Below are positions 4,881-19,033 of a stretch of 24,095 nucleotides of DNA, one piece after another. Source of the DNA: a virus; the IMG/VR virus record IMGVR_UViG_3300023116_000350, positions 1-24,095 of that record; one strand, given 5' to 3'. Below the pieces are notes generated by a model, which did not search any database, was not told the origin of the DNA, and was given only the letters and a program-made list of their open reading frames with translations. How positions within the stretch are numbered: position 1 is the first letter of the stretch; the number at the start of each line of letters is the position of its first letter. A program made the translations under genes and the position numbers.

Positions 4881-6329
4881 TTAGTTGTTTCTAGTGTAGT
4901 AGATATTGACGCCCGCATCAACAACAGCGCCGCCGTTGTCCTTTATTTGAGCGGCTAGATTCACAACCCTGTTTGGCAGTGGATTTACTACTGTTGGCAC
5001 CTCAAAGATCTTTGCCTCGATCCCTGTGTCCGTATTCGTCCCAGAGAAATAAACAGTGCCATCATCGTCATCGACTAACTGAAAATCAATCGTTCTGCTT
5101 GCTGATGTGTTTTGCTGATAGCGCACTATAATTGAATCAACAGTGTCAGGCGTTGGTGTGGTGGCATCAATCTGCAGGAATCCAAACTTAGAGTATGCAA
5201 GGTTTATATTCCCTGACTCAAAGAAGTCTGAGAGGTACTCGGTGCCGTTAACCCATGTTCCATACCTGACACCGTTAATCATTCCGTTTAGAATGCCTGA
5301 ATTAATGATTGAGCCAGTATGGTCGTCAATAGTGGCTGTCAGTGTGCCTGAGTTGGTTATATCCCCTGTCAGCTTAACCGCTCGATAGTTGGATGTTCCT
5401 GAGTTAGTCAGGTTGCCTGTGTGGTTGTCTATGTTAGATATTGACTCGCCGGAATTAGTAAAATCTCCGCTGCTTGAATGGGCGGAGTAGTTAAGCGACC
5501 CATCGTTAATAATCGCTCCCGTCATGTTTACGCCGTTTAGCACAAGATCGCCGCCAGACTCGATGTTGGCAACGGTTTCAATATTAGCTTCAACACAATA
5601 ACCGGACATTAGTCCATTAACGATATTGAAAGCAACGCAGCCAGCACCAGTGCCAGTTAGGCCGGATTCATAGGTGATCGCCCCGACCCTGAACGCAGCA
5701 ACAGTGCTTGCTGTTGTATTGCAATTAAAAGCTATGCAGTTGTCGCCCTCAACGTTCATTTCGTTGTATGCGTAATAGCGTGGCTGATTTCCCGTTGACT
5801 CTATATTTAGCAGAGTAGAGTCTCCAAACCTAGCAGCAGCCTGTCCTACGTCCTGAAAAGAGTCATCGGTAGCCCCTGTGATGTTTGAACCTATCTGATC
5901 AGGCCCATTCAGGATAATTGCCCTAGCATCAAGAGATACGCGGCTTTTACCATTGGTTGAGTAGGCTACATCACCACTGCCTGCGCTTGTTGTAATAGTT
6001 AGGAGTGATACCTGTGCATTGGCTGGAGCATTCAACATGGTCGCGCCTGCCGTCCAGTCGTTAGCGGTTGCAACTGTGCAAAACCTAAGCGCAGCTTGGA
6101 CATTGTCAGTAATGGTTAAAGTCTCGGATAGTGAATATCGACTAATTCCTATGTCAACAATACCAGCCGGATTAAATAGCCCTGGAGGAGGAACCAGAGC
6201 GTTTATTCTACTAACAACGGTAGGCAGGTCTGCTACTGGGAATATTACATTAGAGCCGTCATTGTCATTATTACCGGAGTCCTTGACGTATTTGTCTCGA
6301 ACCCCATTTCCTGGTAGTAAGTTGCTCAT
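4881..6329 (-). CDS. Putative beta-solenoid tail fibre/spike protein
   Basis: 482 residues from the ATG at 6329, which overlaps the upstream TGA as ATGA; an ATG four codons earlier is the alternative. The N-terminal 55 residues carry the conserved-looking DKYVKDSGNNDNDGSNV segment. Residues about 60-265 have the short alternating Val/Ile/Asn/Gly pattern of parallel beta-helix rungs. Residues about 270-354 form five tandem 17-residue repeats with the core N-S-G. The last 120 residues resemble a separate beta-sandwich (SIIVRYQQNTSASRTIDFQL and PNRVVNLAAQI). I see no enzymatic motif. It is coupled to the gp4-like gene, which suggests a structural appendage near the tail hub. Host-receptor binding is an inference from architecture. 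Confidence 0.7.
   Translation of the reverse strand: MSNLLPGNGVRDKYVKDSGNNDNDGSNVIFPVADLPTVVSRINALVPPPGLFNPAGIVDIGISRYSLSETLTITDNVQAALRFCTVATANDWTAGATMLNAPANAQVSLLTITTSAGSGDVAYSTNGKSRVSLDARAIILNGPDQIGSNITGATDDSFQDVGQAAARFGDSTLLNIESTGNQPRYYAYNEMNVEGDNCIAFNCNTTASTVAAFRVGAITYESGLTGTGAGCVAFNIVNGLMSGYCVEANIETVANIESGGDLVLNGVNMTGAIINDGSLNYSAHSSSGDFTNSGESISNIDNHTGNLTNSGTSNYRAVKLTGDITNSGTLTATIDDHTGSIINSGILNGMINGVRYGTWVNGTEYLSDFFESGNINLAYSKFGFLQIDATTPTPDTVDSIIVRYQQNTSASRTIDFQLVDDDDGTVYFSGTNTDTGIEAKIFEVPTVVNPLPNRVVNLAAQIKDNGGAVVDAGVNIYYTRNN
5268..5522 (-). repeat. Five tandem 17-residue (51-bp) coding repeats
   Basis: Within the spike candidate, residues 270-354 divide without gaps into five units of 17 residues. 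They begin TGAIINDG, SGDFTNSG, TGNLTNSG, TGDITNSG and TGSIINSG. The consensus is [ST]-G-x-[ILF]-x-N-[SD]-G followed by nine variable residues. The DNA copies are diverged, so these are old repeats kept by protein selection. One unit per solenoid turn is the natural reading. Confidence 0.85.
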
Positions 6330-7297
6330 GAGGCCAGCCATCCAAATTCAGTAGGCGTCAATTCTACCGAATTCCCGGCAGTTACATTGGCAATATTGAC
6401 AGAATCACCTGCCCCTACTGCGAAGGTACATGTGCCATCAGTAGCAATGATCTTAATCTCTTTGACTGCAGTGGCTGAGTTGTGCAGTGTCAGAGTACCT
6501 GTTCCGGTCACTGTTAAAACGTCATCCTGAGCCGTTGAGATTCCAGGTAGTGCCAATGTGCGCTCAATGAATGAGCAGCCACTGCCCGAAGGTGCTTGGC
6601 CTATAATCTTGCTGTCATTGTCAACGCACTCAGTCACATTGTATTTAATGCAGCTTACAATCTCTTCGCCACCACTATATGTGGCCTTGATCTTAACGTC
6701 ATACTGACCAAGCGTAGAGAATTGGACAAAGGCGCTCGCTGTGGCTCCAAGCAGCGCCTCATCCGTGATGGTAATGGTTCCAGTAATATCAGACCACTCA
6801 GCCGCTAAAATAGTCCCAGTCCCGCCCTTGAGTTCAATCTCAGCCTTAACTTTTGACCCAATGGCGGCGTCAATAATCTGATCTGGATTCTGGAAGTAAT
6901 CGTCAAATAAGTAGTTGTTGTAAATTCGACCACCAGCACCAGTCGGAAGCATTGAATCATTTTGGCGTGCTGGGATATCAATTGATATTAGCTTTGTGTA
7001 AAGGTCTCGCGCTTCGCCAGCATAACCGGGCGGCAAGATAACTGAAAACACATTAGCCATGATGACGCCTAGATTCTGGATTAGTGCATTCTCATCATTC
7101 GCACGTACGCCAGAATCATCAGTAGGCAATACTGGATCGGTTCGCAGATACGGAATATAAACACCGTTATTCGCCCAGCCTGTAATCATGCGCTCTAGCC
7201 GCTTCACTGCTTTTGAAAGATCATCAGCATCAATCGGCAGATCAAAGCCAATGTCTTCTAATGCCTCTGTCGCCAATTCGCCTTTTGTCTTTGCCAT
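6326..7297 (-). CDS. Tail accessory factor, P22 gp4-like, with long C-terminal extension
   Basis: 323 residues from the ATG at 7297, which has AGGAA upstream; an in-frame earlier start exists at 7318. Residues 1-140 match the P22 gp4 pattern. First comes TKGELATEALEDIGFDLP, then a helix 'DDLSKAVKRLERMITGWANNG', an alanine-rich helical segment, and the LPTGAGGR end corresponding to MPTGSGN in P22. In P22, gp4 is the first protein to bind the portal after packaging; it has also been reported to hydrolyse peptidoglycan. P22 gp4 has 166 residues. This protein adds about 170, made of an Ig-like segment (about 150-225) and a beta-rich end (about 235-323). The extension could be a decoration or a docking surface for the next gene's product. 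Confidence 0.82.
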   Translation of the reverse strand: MAKTKGELATEALEDIGFDLPIDADDLSKAVKRLERMITGWANNGVYIPYLRTDPVLPTDDSGVRANDENALIQNLGVIMANVFSVILPPGYAGEARDLYTKLISIDIPARQNDSMLPTGAGGRIYNNYLFDDYFQNPDQIIDAAIGSKVKAEIELKGGTGTILAAEWSDITGTITITDEALLGATASAFVQFSTLGQYDVKIKATYSGGEEIVSCIKYNVTECVDNDSKIIGQAPSGSGCSFIERTLALPGISTAQDDVLTVTGTGTLTLHNSATAVKEIKIIATDGTCTFAVGAGDSVNIANVTAGNSVELTPTEFGWLAS

Positions 7298-7305
7298 ATC
7301 TATTC

Positions 7306-7554
7306 CTAATCGTGCCAAAAGCCATCAAAGCAATGGCGTATTTCATGGCCTATTATTTCATGTGTGTAATGTTTTCGCTCTATTTTTATTAAGCATGGCT
7401 TTGTTTCTGGCCATGCTAGTGCGTATGCTTCCTTTTCGCCTGTCTGCTTTAAGTCATAATCAACTACAATAATCCGAACATCTACAGTCTTGTCTGTAAA
7501 TGTCGGATCATAAGCACACCCACTAAGCATTAGTGCTATCAGTATCAGTCGCAT
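7306..7554 (-). CDS. Small lipoprotein with HExxH zincin-like motif
   Basis: 82 residues. Residues 1-12 form a lipoprotein signal peptide ending in the lipobox LSGC, so Cys13 should be lipidated and the protein membrane-anchored on the periplasmic side. The mature part is about 70 residues and ends in HEIIGHEIRHCFDGFWHD. This contains HEIRH (His70, Glu71, His74), a downstream Gly and a possible third ligand at His81. HExxH is the zinc-binding and catalytic signature of zincin metallopeptidases. Small phage lipoproteins with a terminal GHE-x-RHCF-DG-x-WH motif are familiar to me, but their function is unknown. The gene overlaps the preceding one by 32 bases. Catalysis is unproven, and the domain is very small for a peptidase. 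Confidence 0.75.
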   Translation of the reverse strand: MRLILIALMLSGCAYDPTFTDKTVDVRIIVVDYDLKQTGEKEAYALAWPETKPCLIKIERKHYTHEIIGHEIRHCFDGFWHD

Positions 7555-7756
7555 ACTTAGCCTTCCACTCTTTCATGCGTGTGCGAGTAACATCCTCACA
7601 GTGGTCAGGGTATTGTGATTGATAGCAGTTACGTACAATGTACTCACCATCTGGATTCGGTTCGCCGAAGACGTGACCCGGCGGCAATACAATGTCATCG
7701 GGTATGCTGCTAAAGATGCAGTATAGTTTTGGTTCTTCGTAAACTTCTTCTTCCAT
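7523..7756 (-). CDS. Small acidic cysteine-containing protein, unknown
   Basis: 77 residues with no recognised family. The first ten residues are strongly acidic (MEEEVYEEP), and the centre reads DDIVLPPGHVFGEPNPDGEY. Three Cys (13, 44, 53) could bind metal or pair in an oxidising compartment, but there is no signal peptide. The start is coupled to the LamG-like gene by a TAATG overlap with an AAGGG ribosome site. The last 32 bases overlap the lipoprotein gene in another frame, so the two are probably made together. Both frames look coding: ATG starts, a good ribosome site and non-random composition. Confidence 0.65.
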   Translation of the reverse strand: MEEEVYEEPKLYCIFSSIPDDIVLPPGHVFGEPNPDGEYIVRNCYQSQYPDHCEDVTRTRMKEWKAKYATDTDSTNA

Positions 7757-8760
7757 TATGCGACCCTTAGTAGGCGTTTGATTGTTAGATTATTGAATGA
7801 GCATACTGCTGAGACCCTACCAAACAGCCTAACATCAGGCCCGCTTGTACTTACAAAGTCACCGCCGACAGTGTCGCCAATACTTGGTGTCGTAGCTCTA
7901 AATGGAGGTGTTGCTGGTATTCCATTTGATACACCACCTGTGGCAGTTGTCGTCCATCCGCAGTCAGACGACCCTGAGAATGTCAAAACTGTCGCAGATA
8001 TCCTATATTCATTCCCACCTATTATGCTCGCAACAGGAAAGAACTCAGGATCAGAAGTGTCTCCAAGCACAGGAGATACGCTACTAGTAGCCAATTCCTG
8101 CCCCAGATAATCCCCGTCAGCCTGCTGATTGAATAGCTCCCAGTCTGAGGCGTTGCCGTTTACTACTGAGCCGTCCTGACCGTTTCCGCTAATATCTGCA
8201 ATGATATTTGAGTTATCATTAATAGGGTAATTGCGTACCAGTGTGCCGTTGTCGTACATCAAGACGTTGGCGAGGATGCCAGACATATTGCTAAAACCAC
8301 CTGAACGACAAAACTCATCAGTAACACAATCCGCTACTGTAATATTACCCGAGGCAACCTGAACTCCATTTAACAATATCTCACACACAGTGCCTGTGCG
8401 CTGAAATTTGATAAGATTCAAAGTATTAACAATAACGCTACCAGCAGGAGCGCTGATCTCACCAAGCCCAGTGCTTGTTGGTCTGAAATTAATGGAGCCA
8501 TTAGAGTCAACAAGACCTCGGCTGTCAAAAGTTACAGAATTGCCGAACAGTGCAGACCGAGTCCCATCGAAGTAGAACAGTGACTCAATCTCAAAATCTC
8601 CACTAAACGTAACCTCTGGTATAGAGATATAGTCATTACTGCCGTCATTGGTGCGGAAGTAGCGATTAATGGCAGCAGGCGCTAGACCTGAGCCTAGAAA
8701 CGAGCCAAAAGGACGAGGCCCGCGCCCCGCGAACTTAGGTGGAAGTGGGCCTCTAGGCAT
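7756..8760 (-). CDS. LamG/concanavalin-like virion protein
   Basis: 334 residues. Residues 1-30 are Pro/Gly/Arg-rich, probably a flexible anchor. Residues about 33-200 look like a LamG or concanavalin-type jelly roll: YFRTNDGSNDYISIPEVTFS, then GDFEIESLFYF, a KFQRTGTVCEILLNG strand pair and VLMYDNGTLVRNYPIND. Residues about 205-334 look like a second beta-sandwich of the carbohydrate-binding type (NEYRISATVLTFSGS ... DVRLFGRVSAVCSFNNLTI). No catalytic motif is seen. It lies between coat and gp4 genes among small virion-like proteins, so it is likely a head decoration or adhesin that could bind glycans. The domain call is by pattern only. Confidence 0.7.
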   Translation of the reverse strand: MPRGPLPPKFAGRGPRPFGSFLGSGLAPAAINRYFRTNDGSNDYISIPEVTFSGDFEIESLFYFDGTRSALFGNSVTFDSRGLVDSNGSINFRPTSTGLGEISAPAGSVIVNTLNLIKFQRTGTVCEILLNGVQVASGNITVADCVTDEFCRSGGFSNMSGILANVLMYDNGTLVRNYPINDNSNIIADISGNGQDGSVVNGNASDWELFNQQADGDYLGQELATSSVSPVLGDTSDPEFFPVASIIGGNEYRISATVLTFSGSSDCGWTTTATGGVSNGIPATPPFRATTPSIGDTVGGDFVSTSGPDVRLFGRVSAVCSFNNLTIKRLLRVA

Positions 8761-8761
8761 T

Positions 8762-9085
8762 TTAGGTACCTGTGTTGTTTGCGTCTGTTACGTTCAAAAT
8801 ACCAACACCGTCAGAGCCGGACACGGTGAACTCATACTCTGTGGTCTTATACTGGAATGTCAGGCCGCTAAGGTCAGTCAGTTGAATAACTCCGTCAGGA
8901 ACAACCTCGAAGCCTTCAGAGCTTGGGCCTTTAGCCTTGATCTCGACCTGTCCAGCCGTTGGCGTTGAAGTGGCATTAAGACTGAAGTTCATTTGATGGT
9001 TCATGTTGAAGTTGTACACATCAAGCATAGGCAAATCTTTTGACAGATAAACCCCGTTAGCCAGTGGAACTTGAAAAGTAGCCAT
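8762..9085 (-). CDS. Small beta-rich protein, possible head decoration protein
   Basis: 107 residues, no recognised family. Alternating hydrophobic residues throughout (NHQMNFSLNATSTPTAGQVE, then GVIQLTDLSGLTFQYKTTEY, then FTVSGSDGVGILNVTDANN) suggest an all-beta fold such as an Ig-like sandwich. There is no signal peptide. The ribosome site GAGGG is 6-8 bases before the ATG and overlaps the stop of the preceding gene. Being made right after the coat protein, and in the same region as a lectin-like protein, fits a capsid-surface role. This is inference from position and composition. Confidence 0.65.
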   Translation of the reverse strand: MATFQVPLANGVYLSKDLPMLDVYNFNMNHQMNFSLNATSTPTAGQVEIKAKGPSSEGFEVVPDGVIQLTDLSGLTFQYKTTEYEFTVSGSDGVGILNVTDANNTGT

Positions 9086-9086
9086 A

Positions 9087-9386
9087 TCAGCCCTCGCTTA
9101 GCTCAGCATATTGCTTTTCTAATGTCTCAACAGTAGAGCGGCCACCCGGCTTCTTGCCTGTTAGTTTCTCGATCTCATCACGTAGGAATCGCTCACGATC
9201 TGACATTTGCTCGCCTGACTTGTTATCTTCTGCTTTTGGCTCAGCCTTCTTTAATTCAGAAAGATTGCGAACCCAGCCATTGGCCAAGCGTTTTTTCAAT
9301 TCAATGGCAGTGTGTACGATCTCAGAAGTGTATTCAACGCCTTCCTTAGTCTTCCATGCACCGCCAGCTTTATAAACAGGAATCAT
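9087..9386 (-). CDS. Small protein with possible C-terminal HeH/LEM-like helix pair
   Basis: 99 residues. The N-terminus (residues 1-20) reads like a short beta motif (MIPVYKAGGAWKTKEGVEY). A lysine-rich segment follows, then a charged linker. The last 30 residues (RFLRDEIEKLTGKKPGGRS then TVETLEKQYAELSEG) look like the helix-extended-loop-helix units found at the ends of several phage head or connector proteins. The gene lies directly after the coat terminator and before other virion genes, with an AAGGTG ribosome site. It may be a head completion or head-surface protein. I cannot assign it more precisely. Confidence 0.65.
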   Translation of the reverse strand: MIPVYKAGGAWKTKEGVEYTSEIVHTAIELKKRLANGWVRNLSELKKAEPKAEDNKSGEQMSDRERFLRDEIEKLTGKKPGGRSTVETLEKQYAELSEG

Positions 9387-17146: not shown

Positions 17147-17267
17147 AATCTATTCTAATATCTATCTTCTTGCAGCGCTTACACTTGTAAGCATACGGAC
17201 TAACCCGTCCGTCTTGCGCCATTCTTCGCCATTTATGTCCTAACAATAGGCATTTAATTTTATTCAC
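17145..17267 (-). CDS. 40-residue zinc-ribbon-like phage protein (DUF1660-like)
   Basis: A short gene with GTG start (17265-17267), overlapping the preceding gene by 8 bases, and stop TAG at 17145-17147. The peptide begins VNKIKCLLLGHKWRRMAQDG and ends in RVSPYAYKCKRCKKIDIRID. The pattern K-x-x-C-x-x-x-G-H-K-W near the start and C-x-x-C near the end (Cys6, His11, Cys29, Cys32) is that of small phage zinc-finger proteins annotated DUF1660. It may bind one zinc ion. The weakest point is the start codon: no ATG precedes the first Cys in frame and the ribosome site is only moderate. Function is unknown. Confidence 0.7.
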   Translation of the reverse strand: MNKIKCLLLGHKWRRMAQDGRVSPYAYKCKRCKKIDIRID

Positions 17268-17463
17268 CCGCTTCTAATGCCCTTATCTTAATCGCATGAA
17301 GCTCTTTCTCTCGCTGGTTCTTCTGTATCGCTATCAGTACGTGAGCAAGTCCGAATATAAACATTCCCACTAAGTACCAGTTTTCAGTCAGGAATGTTCC
17401 TGTCACGGTCATTAGATAGACTACGATATTTGTGCTGTTGCTCCCTGTGTCGATAGTACTCAT
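17260..17463 (-). CDS. Putative class II holin
   Basis: 67 residues. There are two hydrophobic segments (about 12-24 and 29-47, the second reading WYLVGMFIFGLAHVLIAIQ) and then a charged helix with KNQREKELHAIKIRALEAGE. The layout (short N-terminus, ENW turn, second membrane helix, charged C-terminus) resembles T7 gp17.5-type holins, which open the inner membrane to let murein enzymes out. It lies in a cluster of small membrane proteins downstream of the DUF5675 gene and before terminase. Start ATG couples with the upstream stop (TAATG). Other small membrane roles cannot be excluded. Confidence 0.6.
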   Translation of the reverse strand: MSTIDTGSNSTNIVVYLMTVTGTFLTENWYLVGMFIFGLAHVLIAIQKNQREKELHAIKIRALEAGE

Positions 17464-17945
17464 TAATGACGCCCGTGCCGCTTGTGATGGTCGCCCAGGT
17501 GAAGAAGGCTGACAAAGCTATCCCTAAAATCATCAACCAGTCCATTCAAACTACCTCGGCAATCTTTCATCATTAATACCGCTAGTAACTGCGCATACCC
17601 TATGATTCCTGTCAAATTACCTGTCCAAGCTGACAGATATCCCGTATTTGCACTATATATCAAATGACCAAAGTTTACAGCCGATTCAACACTCAACAGC
17701 AAGGTAATAATAAGCGCAACACTGGACTTTGTTTTAAAGAAATGAGCGGCGCAGGCCGCAGCAGCAAGTGAGTTTGCAAAGATAATCCACATGAATAGCT
17801 GCCAATAAACAGGATTACTCATTGATACCATAAACCCGAAACAGGCTACCACCATCAACCATAAAGACGTTTCAGTACGTTTATAAAGCGCAGCGGCTAT
17901 CATTAATAGCGGAAGAATACCAAATAGTGGAAGGTAGTGATCCAT
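17463..17945 (-). CDS. Multi-pass membrane protein, unknown
   Basis: 160 residues with about five membrane segments (3-20, 27-42, 46-70, 75-93, 110-127) and a soluble C-terminal tail ending in a histidine/arginine-rich HHKRHGRH. Short loops contain KRTET and KTKSS. There is no signal peptide and no recognised family. It is coupled to the holin-like gene by TAATG, which suggests a joint role in lysis or inner-membrane function. The His-rich tail could bind metal or nucleic acid, but this is only a composition-based remark. Confidence 0.8.
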   Translation of the reverse strand: MDHYLPLFGILPLLMIAAALYKRTETSLWLMVVACFGFMVSMSNPVYWQLFMWIIFANSLAAAACAAHFFKTKSSVALIITLLLSVESAVNFGHLIYSANTGYLSAWTGNLTGIIGYAQLLAVLMMKDCRGSLNGLVDDFRDSFVSLLHLGDHHKRHGRH

Positions 17946-17947
17946 TG

Positions 17948-18103
17948 CTAAGCCCTCTTAGACTTCTTTTGGCTTCCAAAACCAGCACCAGCTCCAGCAA
18001 GCTTGCCGCCCTTTTTCTTGCCATTTCCGCCAGTCATAGCGGTTTTCTTTGGCTTTGATTTGTTTTTAGCTGCGCGTTGACCGCGTGTTGGTTTACCTGG
18101 CAT
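17948..18103 (-). CDS. 51-residue Lys/Arg/Gly-rich basic protein
   Basis: A small gene, ATG at 18101-18103 and TAG at 17948-17950. The peptide starts MPGKPTRGQRAAKNKSK, continues PKKTAMTGGNGKKKGGK, and ends in LAGAGAGFGSQKKSKRA. It is almost wholly basic and Gly/Ala-rich, with no hydrophobic core, and is probably disordered and able to bind nucleic acid. Its start shares a base with the TAA of the upstream gene (TAATG), and the next ATG follows two bases after its stop. This tight packing within the membrane-protein cluster and the good coding signal support a real gene. No family recognised. Confidence 0.75.
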   Translation of the reverse strand: MPGKPTRGQRAAKNKSKPKKTAMTGGNGKKKGGKLAGAGAGFGSQKKSKRA

Positions 18104-18336
18104 TATTTTTCACCTTTAAAGTTTCTTAATACAGAGGATAGACCAGCTTCGATTGCGTCTTTGTGCTCTTTGAATGTCTCATACAGTACATCGTCGAATT
18201 TTGTGTCAGTACTGCGAACCTTTGCTAGCATCCATTTGTCAGCAGAATTGAGCGCCCACCGGATAAGCTTCGCAAGCATGGTGAAGCCAATATCAATCAA
18301 AATAGGCTTAAGAATCAGCCAAATAATCTTTTCCAT
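18103..18336 (-). CDS. Small membrane-associated protein, unknown
   Basis: 77 residues. Residues 1-28 are hydrophobic with Lys at the edges (EKIIWLILKPILIDIGFTML then AKLIRWALNSADK), and look like one membrane helix and perhaps a second short amphipathic helix. The rest is charged and helical (RSTDTKFDDVLYETFKEHKD). The ribosome site AAGGA lies 9 bases before the ATG. It opens the membrane cluster 18336-17145, so it may join lysis as holin or antiholin, but no family is seen. Confidence 0.7.
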   Translation of the reverse strand: MEKIIWLILKPILIDIGFTMLAKLIRWALNSADKWMLAKVRSTDTKFDDVLYETFKEHKDAIEAGLSSVLRNFKGEK

Positions 18337-18459
18337 TGTATGGATTCCTTGGTTATGTTTAGGCCAGATTATCAGCTATTGAAGGGATGAGCAAGAAAGG
18401 TGGCGACCAAGGCAAGGAGAAGGGAAACCAAGGCCGCCGAAGGAGTTTAACTATAACAG
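18337..18459. other. Gene-free stretch, GA/CT-biased
   Basis: Between the 77-residue gene and the DUF5675 gene lie 123 bases with a purine-rich plus strand (AAGG, GGCGACC and CCAAGG words repeated). I see no hairpin with a T tract and no convincing promoter. A 38-codon plus-strand frame starting at 18387 runs antisense into the DUF5675 gene and has no proper ribosome site. I list the stretch as empty. Confidence 0.5.
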
Positions 18460-18864
18460 CTATTCCATGTGATTGTCAGCATGTGGATTATATTGTCGAA
18501 TAATAAGCTGCCAATCTTCATCACCTACAAAGCCTAGTAATGCGTCTAGCCCATCATCTGAGCCATTCAGGTTAAACATGTTATCCCTATCAGTACCAAC
18601 CAGAATACACCCGTCAGAGTGAAATGGCGTAATTCCACCATGAAGCTCAATAAACGTGCGCCCTGTTACATCCTGAACAGCAAACCACTGATGTCTACCT
18701 GTGGTATCACGCTTAACAATGTATCGCCCCTCTGGGATGCAGCTTATATCTCGCTCGTTATCATTCCATGGGCGCTCCAGTGTCTTCAGTAGCCAGTGGC
18801 CAGCTTTGATGGTTCCAATGGTGCGATCAGGTAGATATGAACGTATTAATTCAAGTGTTTTCAT
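18460..18864 (-). CDS. DUF5675 protein, candidate murein-active enzyme
   Basis: 134 residues from the ATG at 18864, with GGAGAAG upstream; an ATG 21 bases earlier is also in frame. Hallmarks of DUF5675 are visible: TLERPWNDNERDISCIPEGR (28-47), then a strand-turn region, then FIELHGGITPFHSDGCILVG (71-90). The last segment, with His75 and Ser83-x-Gly-Cys86, resembles the H...S-x-G-C active-site pattern of L,D-transpeptidases. A peptidoglycan role in lysis is therefore possible. It lies just before the membrane cluster that includes a holin-like gene, and no other endolysin is seen here. The family itself has no proven function that I know. Confidence 0.8.
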   Translation of the reverse strand: MKTLELIRSYLPDRTIGTIKAGHWLLKTLERPWNDNERDISCIPEGRYIVKRDTTGRHQWFAVQDVTGRTFIELHGGITPFHSDGCILVGTDRDNMFNLNGSDDGLDALLGFVGDEDWQLIIRQYNPHADNHME

Positions 18865-19033
18865 TGATTCGCTTCTCCATTGCATATAAATGCTCTAGGT
18901 CATTTTTAAAGTTATGTATTTGCGCCTTCAGTTTTTGGCGCTCAGCTTCGTTTTCTTCCTGCAATAGCCGACACTCTAAGTCAGCTATCACTTCATTAAA
19001 AACCCGCTTTTCATTTTCAAAGCAGACTACCAC
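18851..19033 (-). CDS. Small coiled-coil protein
   Basis: 60 residues. The GTG start at 19033 follows an AAGGATGG ribosome site and overlaps the stop of the MazG-like gene (TAGTG). Nearly all of residues 8-55 is a charged helix with heptad-like Leu and Ile spacing (NEVIADLECRLLQEENEAER then AQIHNFKNDLEHLYAMEKRI). No membrane segment is present, so it is not a spanin of the usual kind. Overlap of 14 bases with the DUF5675 gene suggests coupled translation. Function unknown. Confidence 0.6.
   Translation of the reverse strand: MVVCFENEKRVFNEVIADLECRLLQEENEAERQKLKAQIHNFKNDLEHLYAMEKRINENT

Follow-up and report, generated by a model that had tools for sequence, protein, structure and literature searches.

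A short HExxH lipoprotein encoded among the virion genes of a P22-like virus, a candidate envelope-anchored mini-metallopeptidase

The window analysed here, a virus record of 24,095 bases, encodes a P22-type portal, coat and gp4 protein according to Pfam, and PHROG identified a gp10-like head closure protein among the neighbours. No tRNA was found in the window. Upstream of gp4, on the minus strand, lies a gene for a protein of 82 residues (MRLILIALMLSGCAYDPTF...THEIIGHEIRHCFDGFWHD) that ends in GHEIRHCFDGFWHD and carries an HExxH motif (Table 1). A sequence-only reading of this DNA had described a lipobox protein with HExxH in a domain of about 70 residues, overlapping the gene of an acidic three-Cys protein by 32 bases and situated within virion genes. 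All of this was borne out; the mature part, C13-D82, has 70 residues, the numbering of Glu71 is correct, and the neighbouring genes are of P22 type.

The N-terminus (MRLILIALMLSGC) contains an n-region, a hydrophobic stretch and a lipobox of the form [LVI][ASTVI][GAS]C, with signal and lipobox reading MRLILIALMLSG-C13 (LSG-C13). The signal is short, 12 residues, and Pfam LPAM_1 is matched only weakly, at 12 bits where the cut-off is 20. Under the +2 rule, Ala after the lipobox Cys directs a lipoprotein to the outer membrane. The lipoprotein and gp4 genes look translated in series, because the former has a ribosome-binding site of its own and the AGGA of the likely gp4 start overlaps its stop codon.

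Table 1. Features of the lipoprotein locus, in window coordinates
Feature	Position	Strand	Evidence or remark
gp4-like tail accessory factor with C-terminal extension	6326..7297	(-)	PF11650, E 1.3e-7; phrog_637, E 2.2e-17; likely start ATG 7297
82-aa lipoprotein gene with HExxH	7306..7554 (stop included)	(-)	phrog_27783 match, E 5.5e-10, and family
His81 codon, putative third metal ligand (HExxHx6H)	7312..7314	(-)	spacing conserved; absent from retrieval patterns
Cys75 codon, adjoining the second motif His	7330..7332	(-)	invariant in alignment A2
HEIRH, residues 70-74, putative metal/catalytic motif	7333..7347	(-)	kept in 42/42 motif-independent complete phage relatives
Cys54 codon, possible disulphide partner of Cys75	7393-7395	(-)	invariant in A2; pairing putative
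Cys13 codon, lipobox Cys (LSG-C), next residue Ala	7516..7518	(-)	sequence
GGAAGG ribosome-binding site of the lipoprotein gene	7561..7566	(-)	6 nt before ATG
77-aa acidic three-Cys ORF	7523..7756	(-)	Glu/Asp-rich; 32-base overlap (7523-7554) with the lipoprotein gene
Four-gene stretch separating gp4 from the 99-aa gene, missing in Vibrio phage 1.061.O	7306..9085	(-)	gene-order comparison

When the 82 residues were shuffled 200,000 times, HExxH arose in 1.7% of the shuffles, so that the pentapeptide alone is weak evidence; the longer HExxHx6H occurred in 0.05%. A chance reading frame or a chance motif nevertheless has a negligible probability, and we reject it on the family match and the residue conservation, to which the ribosome-binding site adds. 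The protein matched phrog_27783 over nearly its full length (residues 2-81 on positions 4-80 of 88), a family listed by PHROG as of unknown function and with no structure attached to it. All 19 members of our first alignment, A1, matched the same family at E 0.01 or better; five intact bacterial members gave weak matches (E 3.7e-5 to 0.01), and two bacterial members lacking HExxH gave none. Scored against a profile HMM built without it, the window protein reached 42.8 bits. Residues 67-82 alone scored 30.8 bits and residues 13-66 alone 1.4, while 2 of 2000 shuffles of residues 13-66 reached the full score. By these sequence scores the window protein is a real but divergent family member, its N-terminal part being the divergent one.

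Searches of Pfam, NCBIfam and PDB sequences with the window protein gave no relevant match, and neither did those with the A1 members and the A2 profile, nor that of NCBIfam with ten relatives. Seven proteins, that of the window among them, were used as tblastn queries against 50,697 phage records and returned nothing convincing at E-value limits of 10, 0.01 and 0.1, the only matches being at E 9 and E 0.07. In a library of open-access papers we found neither a paper that describes the family nor one that mentions phrog_27783 by number. The family comprises short exported proteins of phages and Burkholderiales; in the libraries searched it has neither a curated name nor a structure.

Relatives were collected with a degenerate DNA pattern, which retrieved 20 viral loci, and with a pattern derived from the alignment of these loci. 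The second pattern led to confirmed relatives numbering 145 in viral contigs and 117 in bacterial genomes, and from each group 80 were kept. Most members were therefore retrieved by the motif itself, and the invariance of GHExRHC in alignments A1 and A2 is biased accordingly. Retrieval free of the motif was by a pattern outside the signature, which covered one phage subfamily, and by HMM searches, one of which ran on many motif-fetched loci. A2 consists of the window protein and 105 of the 113 non-redundant relatives; the eight left out include L103 and a copy in L171 in which the Cys54 position is missing. A3, used for the model and the tree, has 91 rows, with 15 of 106 left out.

The 158 distinct proteins, the window protein included, are short, begin with a lipobox or signal-like stretch, bar a few fragments, and end at or soon after the motif. 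By regular expression, 16 of the 68 phage proteins, counting that of the window, have a lipobox, as do 60 of the 86 bacterial proteins long enough to judge; most of the others have signal-like N-termini by eye. Export thus appears to be general in the family, lipidation not. All four family cysteines were aligned in 181 of 202 distinct sequences of the HMM-aligned set. The window protein and L017 are without the first two, and such joint loss (co-loss table 192/1/5/4, in which several rows are fragments) is suggestive of disulphides C1-C2 and C3-C4. In the tree 21 of 88 inner branches were starred, and the window branch, of length 3.19, was unplaced. The label phage or bacterium needs 7 changes on it, of which at least 2 are forced. 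As the tree is poorly resolved, we claim neither a phage nor a bacterial origin.

The signature is better written HExxH-C-x5-H, with His81 as a third histidine. This histidine lies outside the retrieval patterns, and its spacing is the same in 68 of 68 distinct phage proteins and 88 of 89 bacterial ones, L103 being the exception. An independent test of the motif itself was made by searching viral contigs with GxGV..AC(S/T)FW, a pattern outside the signature. This search gave 43 loci, one of them cut at a contig end; GHExxHC-x5-H is kept in all 42 with a complete C-terminus (21 distinct C-terminal parts), and the two x positions of HExxH vary, including R to L or Y. The set represents one phage subfamily, other than the branch of the window protein, and some of its contigs were already in the earlier set. 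Furthermore, dN/dS was about 0.03 to 0.28 in the 23 of 24 close phage pairs of equal length for which dS was defined, the pairs not being independent of each other (for example 0.026 against 0.836 and 0.132 against 1.99). These ratios show purifying selection on the sequences of the phage relatives. In the window's own lineage the only coat-based relatives are L002 (100%) and L237 (97%), and neither of them reveals selection on the lipoprotein in that lineage.

Copies without HExxH do exist. An HMM search of the six-frame reading frames of all loci collected by that stage gave 273 matches, duplicates and fragments included, of which 30 lack HExxH, and all 30 are in bacterial loci of the Limnohabitans kind. 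The sequence-only reading had named loss of HExxH with retention of the rest as a point against a peptidase. Such copies were found among the bacterial paralogues, which keep the Cys pattern; the complete phage members seen, mostly fetched by the motif, all have HExxH. Among 80 loci from bacterial genome contigs, 13 contain an intact and an HExxH-less copy, 10 two intact copies and 57 a single one. The HExxH-less copy lies directly upstream of the intact one, on the same strand, in 12 of the 13 mixed loci; the thirteenth, L161, has a second copy truncated at the end of the contig. Other paralogues without the motif (LGNAVRxC type; for example L222, L228 and L235) do not adjoin an intact copy. 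The family occurs in 50 of 90 genomes, with up to seven matches each, in the genus of the genome that holds Limnohabitans locus L107, and in 3 of 150 genomes drawn from the wider family of that genome, itself included.

AlphaFold2 models of the window protein (pLDDT 83.5) and of the relative L102 (pLDDT 93.1) both have the order beta-alpha-beta-beta-alpha, which we take to be the minimal zincin core, with HExxH on the last helix. A fold search with the window model gave abylysin as the best match, at Z 4.2 over 50 residues. Judged by their titles, 16 of the 26 PDB matches listed are zincin-fold metallopeptidases or their kin, several repeating one protein: abylysin, jannalysin, selecase, LTA4H (five times), SPRTN, IrrE, snapalysin and others. 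Besides these, two rows of anthrax lethal factor and two of Certhrax were among the matches listed. For the L102 model, the one with the higher pLDDT, glyoxalase-like chains came first, dynein and Ras-like chains appeared as well, and the only related kinds among its 50 matches listed were YbeY (Z 3.4) and an M61 peptidase (Z 3.1). Plain Foldseek gave no match under E 0.1 with either model, the first rows for the window model being baculovirus and G-protein chains. A "viral" structure library returned uncharacterised, SprT-like, IrrE-like and "metalloprotease" rows, none under E 0.001. The predicted fold is thus compatible with a minimal zincin, and the searches with the two models conflict.

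The portal is 64% identical over 83% to that of Vibrio lentus phages. In Vibrio phage 1.061.O the coat gene is followed by one whose product has 98 residues and shares 49% identity with that of window 9087-9386 (the 99-aa gene); gp4 comes immediately after it. The window has four extra genes at this site (8762-9085, 7756-8760, 7523-7756 and 7306-7554), and Aeromonas phage 4_4512 has one gene more there than 1.061.O. The family profile gave no match on the whole records of 1.061.O, 4_4512 and PVA1. An empty result of this kind says nothing unless a positive control accompanies it; on 50 whole viral records chosen as carriers, the same profile gave exactly one match in each. Because a related Vibrio phage is without the gene between coat and gp4, the lipoprotein gene looks like accessory cargo. 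The other two genes of the insert, at 7756-9085, encode proteins of 107 and 334 residues of no confident family. The C-terminal extension of the gp4-like protein, about 175 residues encoded at 6326-6859, gave no alignment to Vibrio phage gp4.

Co-occurrence of the lipoprotein gene with that of the acidic three-Cys protein, which the sequence-only reading had proposed to look for, was not found; in the viral contigs the acidic protein has no relative beyond an identical one in L002. In other phages the family gene stands in scattered contexts. It follows a head-tail-adaptor/portal-type gene in L026 and a tail gene, with one small ORF between, in L029; in L033 it is closely preceded by a pair of phrog_18771 genes, one of which matches a holin weakly (E 0.0049); in L055 and L066 it lies near a DNA polymerase gene, with its neighbours on the other strand; and in L064 and others it heads a group of small genes. 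Such contexts fit mobile cargo and, differing as they do, point to no one purpose. Neighbouring genes were called simply as the longest ORFs, which is a crude rule; among GC-rich bacteria some of these calls are in the wrong frame. An IF-1-like protein of 72-82 residues (by eye) is encoded near the family gene in L047 (7530-7775) and 24 other phage loci, and a radical SAM protein on its other side in L089, the cluster of which has 25 loci. In L026 a 777-aa ORF (498-2828) precedes the head-tail-adaptor/portal-type gene, at the usual place of a terminase, and has an intein-like N-terminal stretch by eye.

The lipoprotein shares with zincins (clan MA) an HExxH that the models place on a helix and a conserved third residue, His81, as a putative ligand. 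In gluzincins the third ligand is a distal downstream Glu. The family has no invariant Glu after HExxH, position 77 being E, Q, D, M or others, and its invariant residue is His81, so that membership of the gluzincins by motif is rejected. The minigluzincins and selecase (abylysin 4JIU, jannalysin 4JIX) are likewise small one-domain HExxH proteins, with chains of 104-109 residues, whereas the window protein is secreted by prediction and bears cysteines, and its invariant His stands at the seventh position beyond the second motif His. Minigluzincins were absent among the 50 matches listed for L102. Metzincins have HExxHxxGxxH/D and a Met-turn; this class is rejected as well, since the spacer here is six residues long and the chain, with its 82 residues, leaves no room for a Met-turn.

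Enzymes at the cell surface offer analogies. According to PMC7950410, the M48 proteins YcaL and LoiP of E. coli are HExxH metallopeptidases lipid-anchored to the outer membrane. They resemble the window lipoprotein in its motif and predicted placement. YcaL is described as acting on unfolded outer-membrane proteins at the Bam complex and the substrates of LoiP as uncharacterised; M48 proteins also have, at a long distance after HExxH, a Glu ligand and a plug, HPx4R (PMC7950410). In the window protein only eight residues follow HExxH, and Pfam gives no M48 match; membership of M48 by motif is rejected. In Listeria, a phage-derived metzincin (Mtz) and a TIMP-like lipoprotein (Tim) sensitise the cell to lysins (PMC8235301). 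Like the window protein they are phage-derived, and they combine a secreted metallopeptidase and a lipoprotein at the cell surface. Mtz and Tim are, however, two proteins of a Gram-positive host, one of them a metzincin, whereas here a single short lipoprotein carries HExxHx6H. YcaL/LoiP and Mtz/Tim are analogies to the mechanism considered below.

Small lipoproteins that bind a host envelope protein, Cor and Llp, serve phages in superinfection exclusion. Neither these nor Ltp of TP-J34 are known to contain HExxH. Ltp is reported to be a phage superinfection-exclusion lipoprotein (PMC3952083). All are small, phage-made and located in the host envelope, as predicted for the window protein.

Our preferred reading, with a probability of about 0.5, is an outer-membrane-anchored mini-metallopeptidase that is made late and acts on a host envelope protein. 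The protein would be exported by Sec, cleaved before Cys13 and lipidated, and Ala at +2 would place it in the outer membrane, facing the periplasm. There a domain of 60-70 residues would take up the order beta-alpha-beta-beta-alpha, its final helix bearing HExxH. One metal ion, probably zinc, would be held by His70, His74 and His81, and Glu71 would activate a water molecule, as in zincins. Since the gene is inserted among virion genes, as optional cargo of a P22-like phage, the protein was probably made late in infection. A host outer-membrane or periplasmic protein is the most likely target, and its cleavage may aid progeny release or block re-adsorption or superinfection. Weak hints of a lysis context come from the genes upstream in L033 and from the endolysins of some loci, taken up below. 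The sequence-only reading had likewise proposed a membrane-anchored mini-zincin. Its support has grown through the conservation of the third His and the retention of HExxH in 42 of 42 motif-independent phage relatives, in addition to the lipobox and the small size; on the fold, the searches with two models disagree. Against it speak the best Z of only 4.2, the mostly unrelated folds matched by the L102 model, the family score that comes mostly from the 16 C-terminal residues, the missing first two cysteines and very long, unplaced branch of the window protein, the coverage of a single, different phage subfamily by the motif-independent test, the HExxH-less bacterial copies, and the differing phage contexts.

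The chief rival is a metal-stabilised binder without catalysis: an envelope lipoprotein in which a zinc site and disulphides stabilise the fold and which binds a host envelope protein in the manner of Cor or Llp. The domain is very small, the fold scores are weak, the bacterial paralogues retain the Cys pattern when HExxH is gone, and one of the 19 A1 members matches the Cor family (phrog_1119) at E 8.6e-4, possibly through its signal only. A structural zinc site needs no Glu, however, and the Glu of HExxH is kept throughout the 42 motif-independent relatives; the window protein itself has no match to the Cor family at 0.01. We regard such a binder as rather unlikely, and a lysis helper, for instance a spanin-like or cell-wall-acting lipoprotein, as more unlikely still. 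The latter would be in line with the phrog_18771 genes of L033, with the Listeria pair, which sensitises cells to lysins (PMC8235301), with one A1 member that matches an Rz-like spanin family at 0.006, and, as a weak hint, with an endolysin in 8 of the 100 loci L003-L102 (one endolysin query, some loci being near-copies). By that one query, however, lysis genes were recognised in few phage loci; the window protein has no match to the Rz/Rz1-type spanin family at 0.01, a proline-rich spanin stretch was not seen by eye, and the gene lies among head genes, about 10 kb from a DUF5675 ORF and small membrane-type ORFs at 17260-18885, which were taken by eye as the lysis region.

A component of the virion, such as a packaged protease or anchor brought into play at entry, would explain the position between coat-proximal genes and gp4, the coupled translation signals, and the places after structural genes in L026 and L029. 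Its N-terminal export signal, though, would take the protein to the periplasm, away from the cytoplasmic assembly of capsids, the three related Vibrio and Aeromonas phages gave no match, and the copies in L055 and L066 run opposite to their neighbours. This explanation is very improbable.

If the anchored metallopeptidase is the right reading, a wider proposal can be made, which is speculative and rather doubtful: a widespread family of disulphide-stapled, envelope-targeted phage metallopeptidases, of 60-70 mature residues in the smallest, which cut a host envelope protein by means of an unusual HExxHx6H. Bacteria of the Limnohabitans type would keep the same fold as a tandem of an intact and a dead copy, the latter perhaps a regulator or decoy. 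What appears to be new is a zincin-like protein with unusual ligand spacing and size. We know of no smaller zincin. Should fold and activity hold, these proteins would be among the smallest metallopeptidases known, and a phage tool on the host envelope would be shared by phages of several types and a genus of freshwater bacteria. The intact and dead tandem copies offer a ready genetic test of the importance of the active site. In Limnohabitans, tandems with the HExxH-less copy directly upstream of the intact one are seen in L162 (5348-6054), L217-L221, L226 and L234. The surroundings of L219, L162 and L220 include genes for an Ig-like repeat protein, an OmpA-family protein, a solute-binding protein and a sigma-54 activator. 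A tex-like gene (by eye) lies upstream of the family gene in 47 bacterial loci, for example at 1980-4478 in L230, on the opposite strand in 46 of the 47 and at a median distance of 193 bp.
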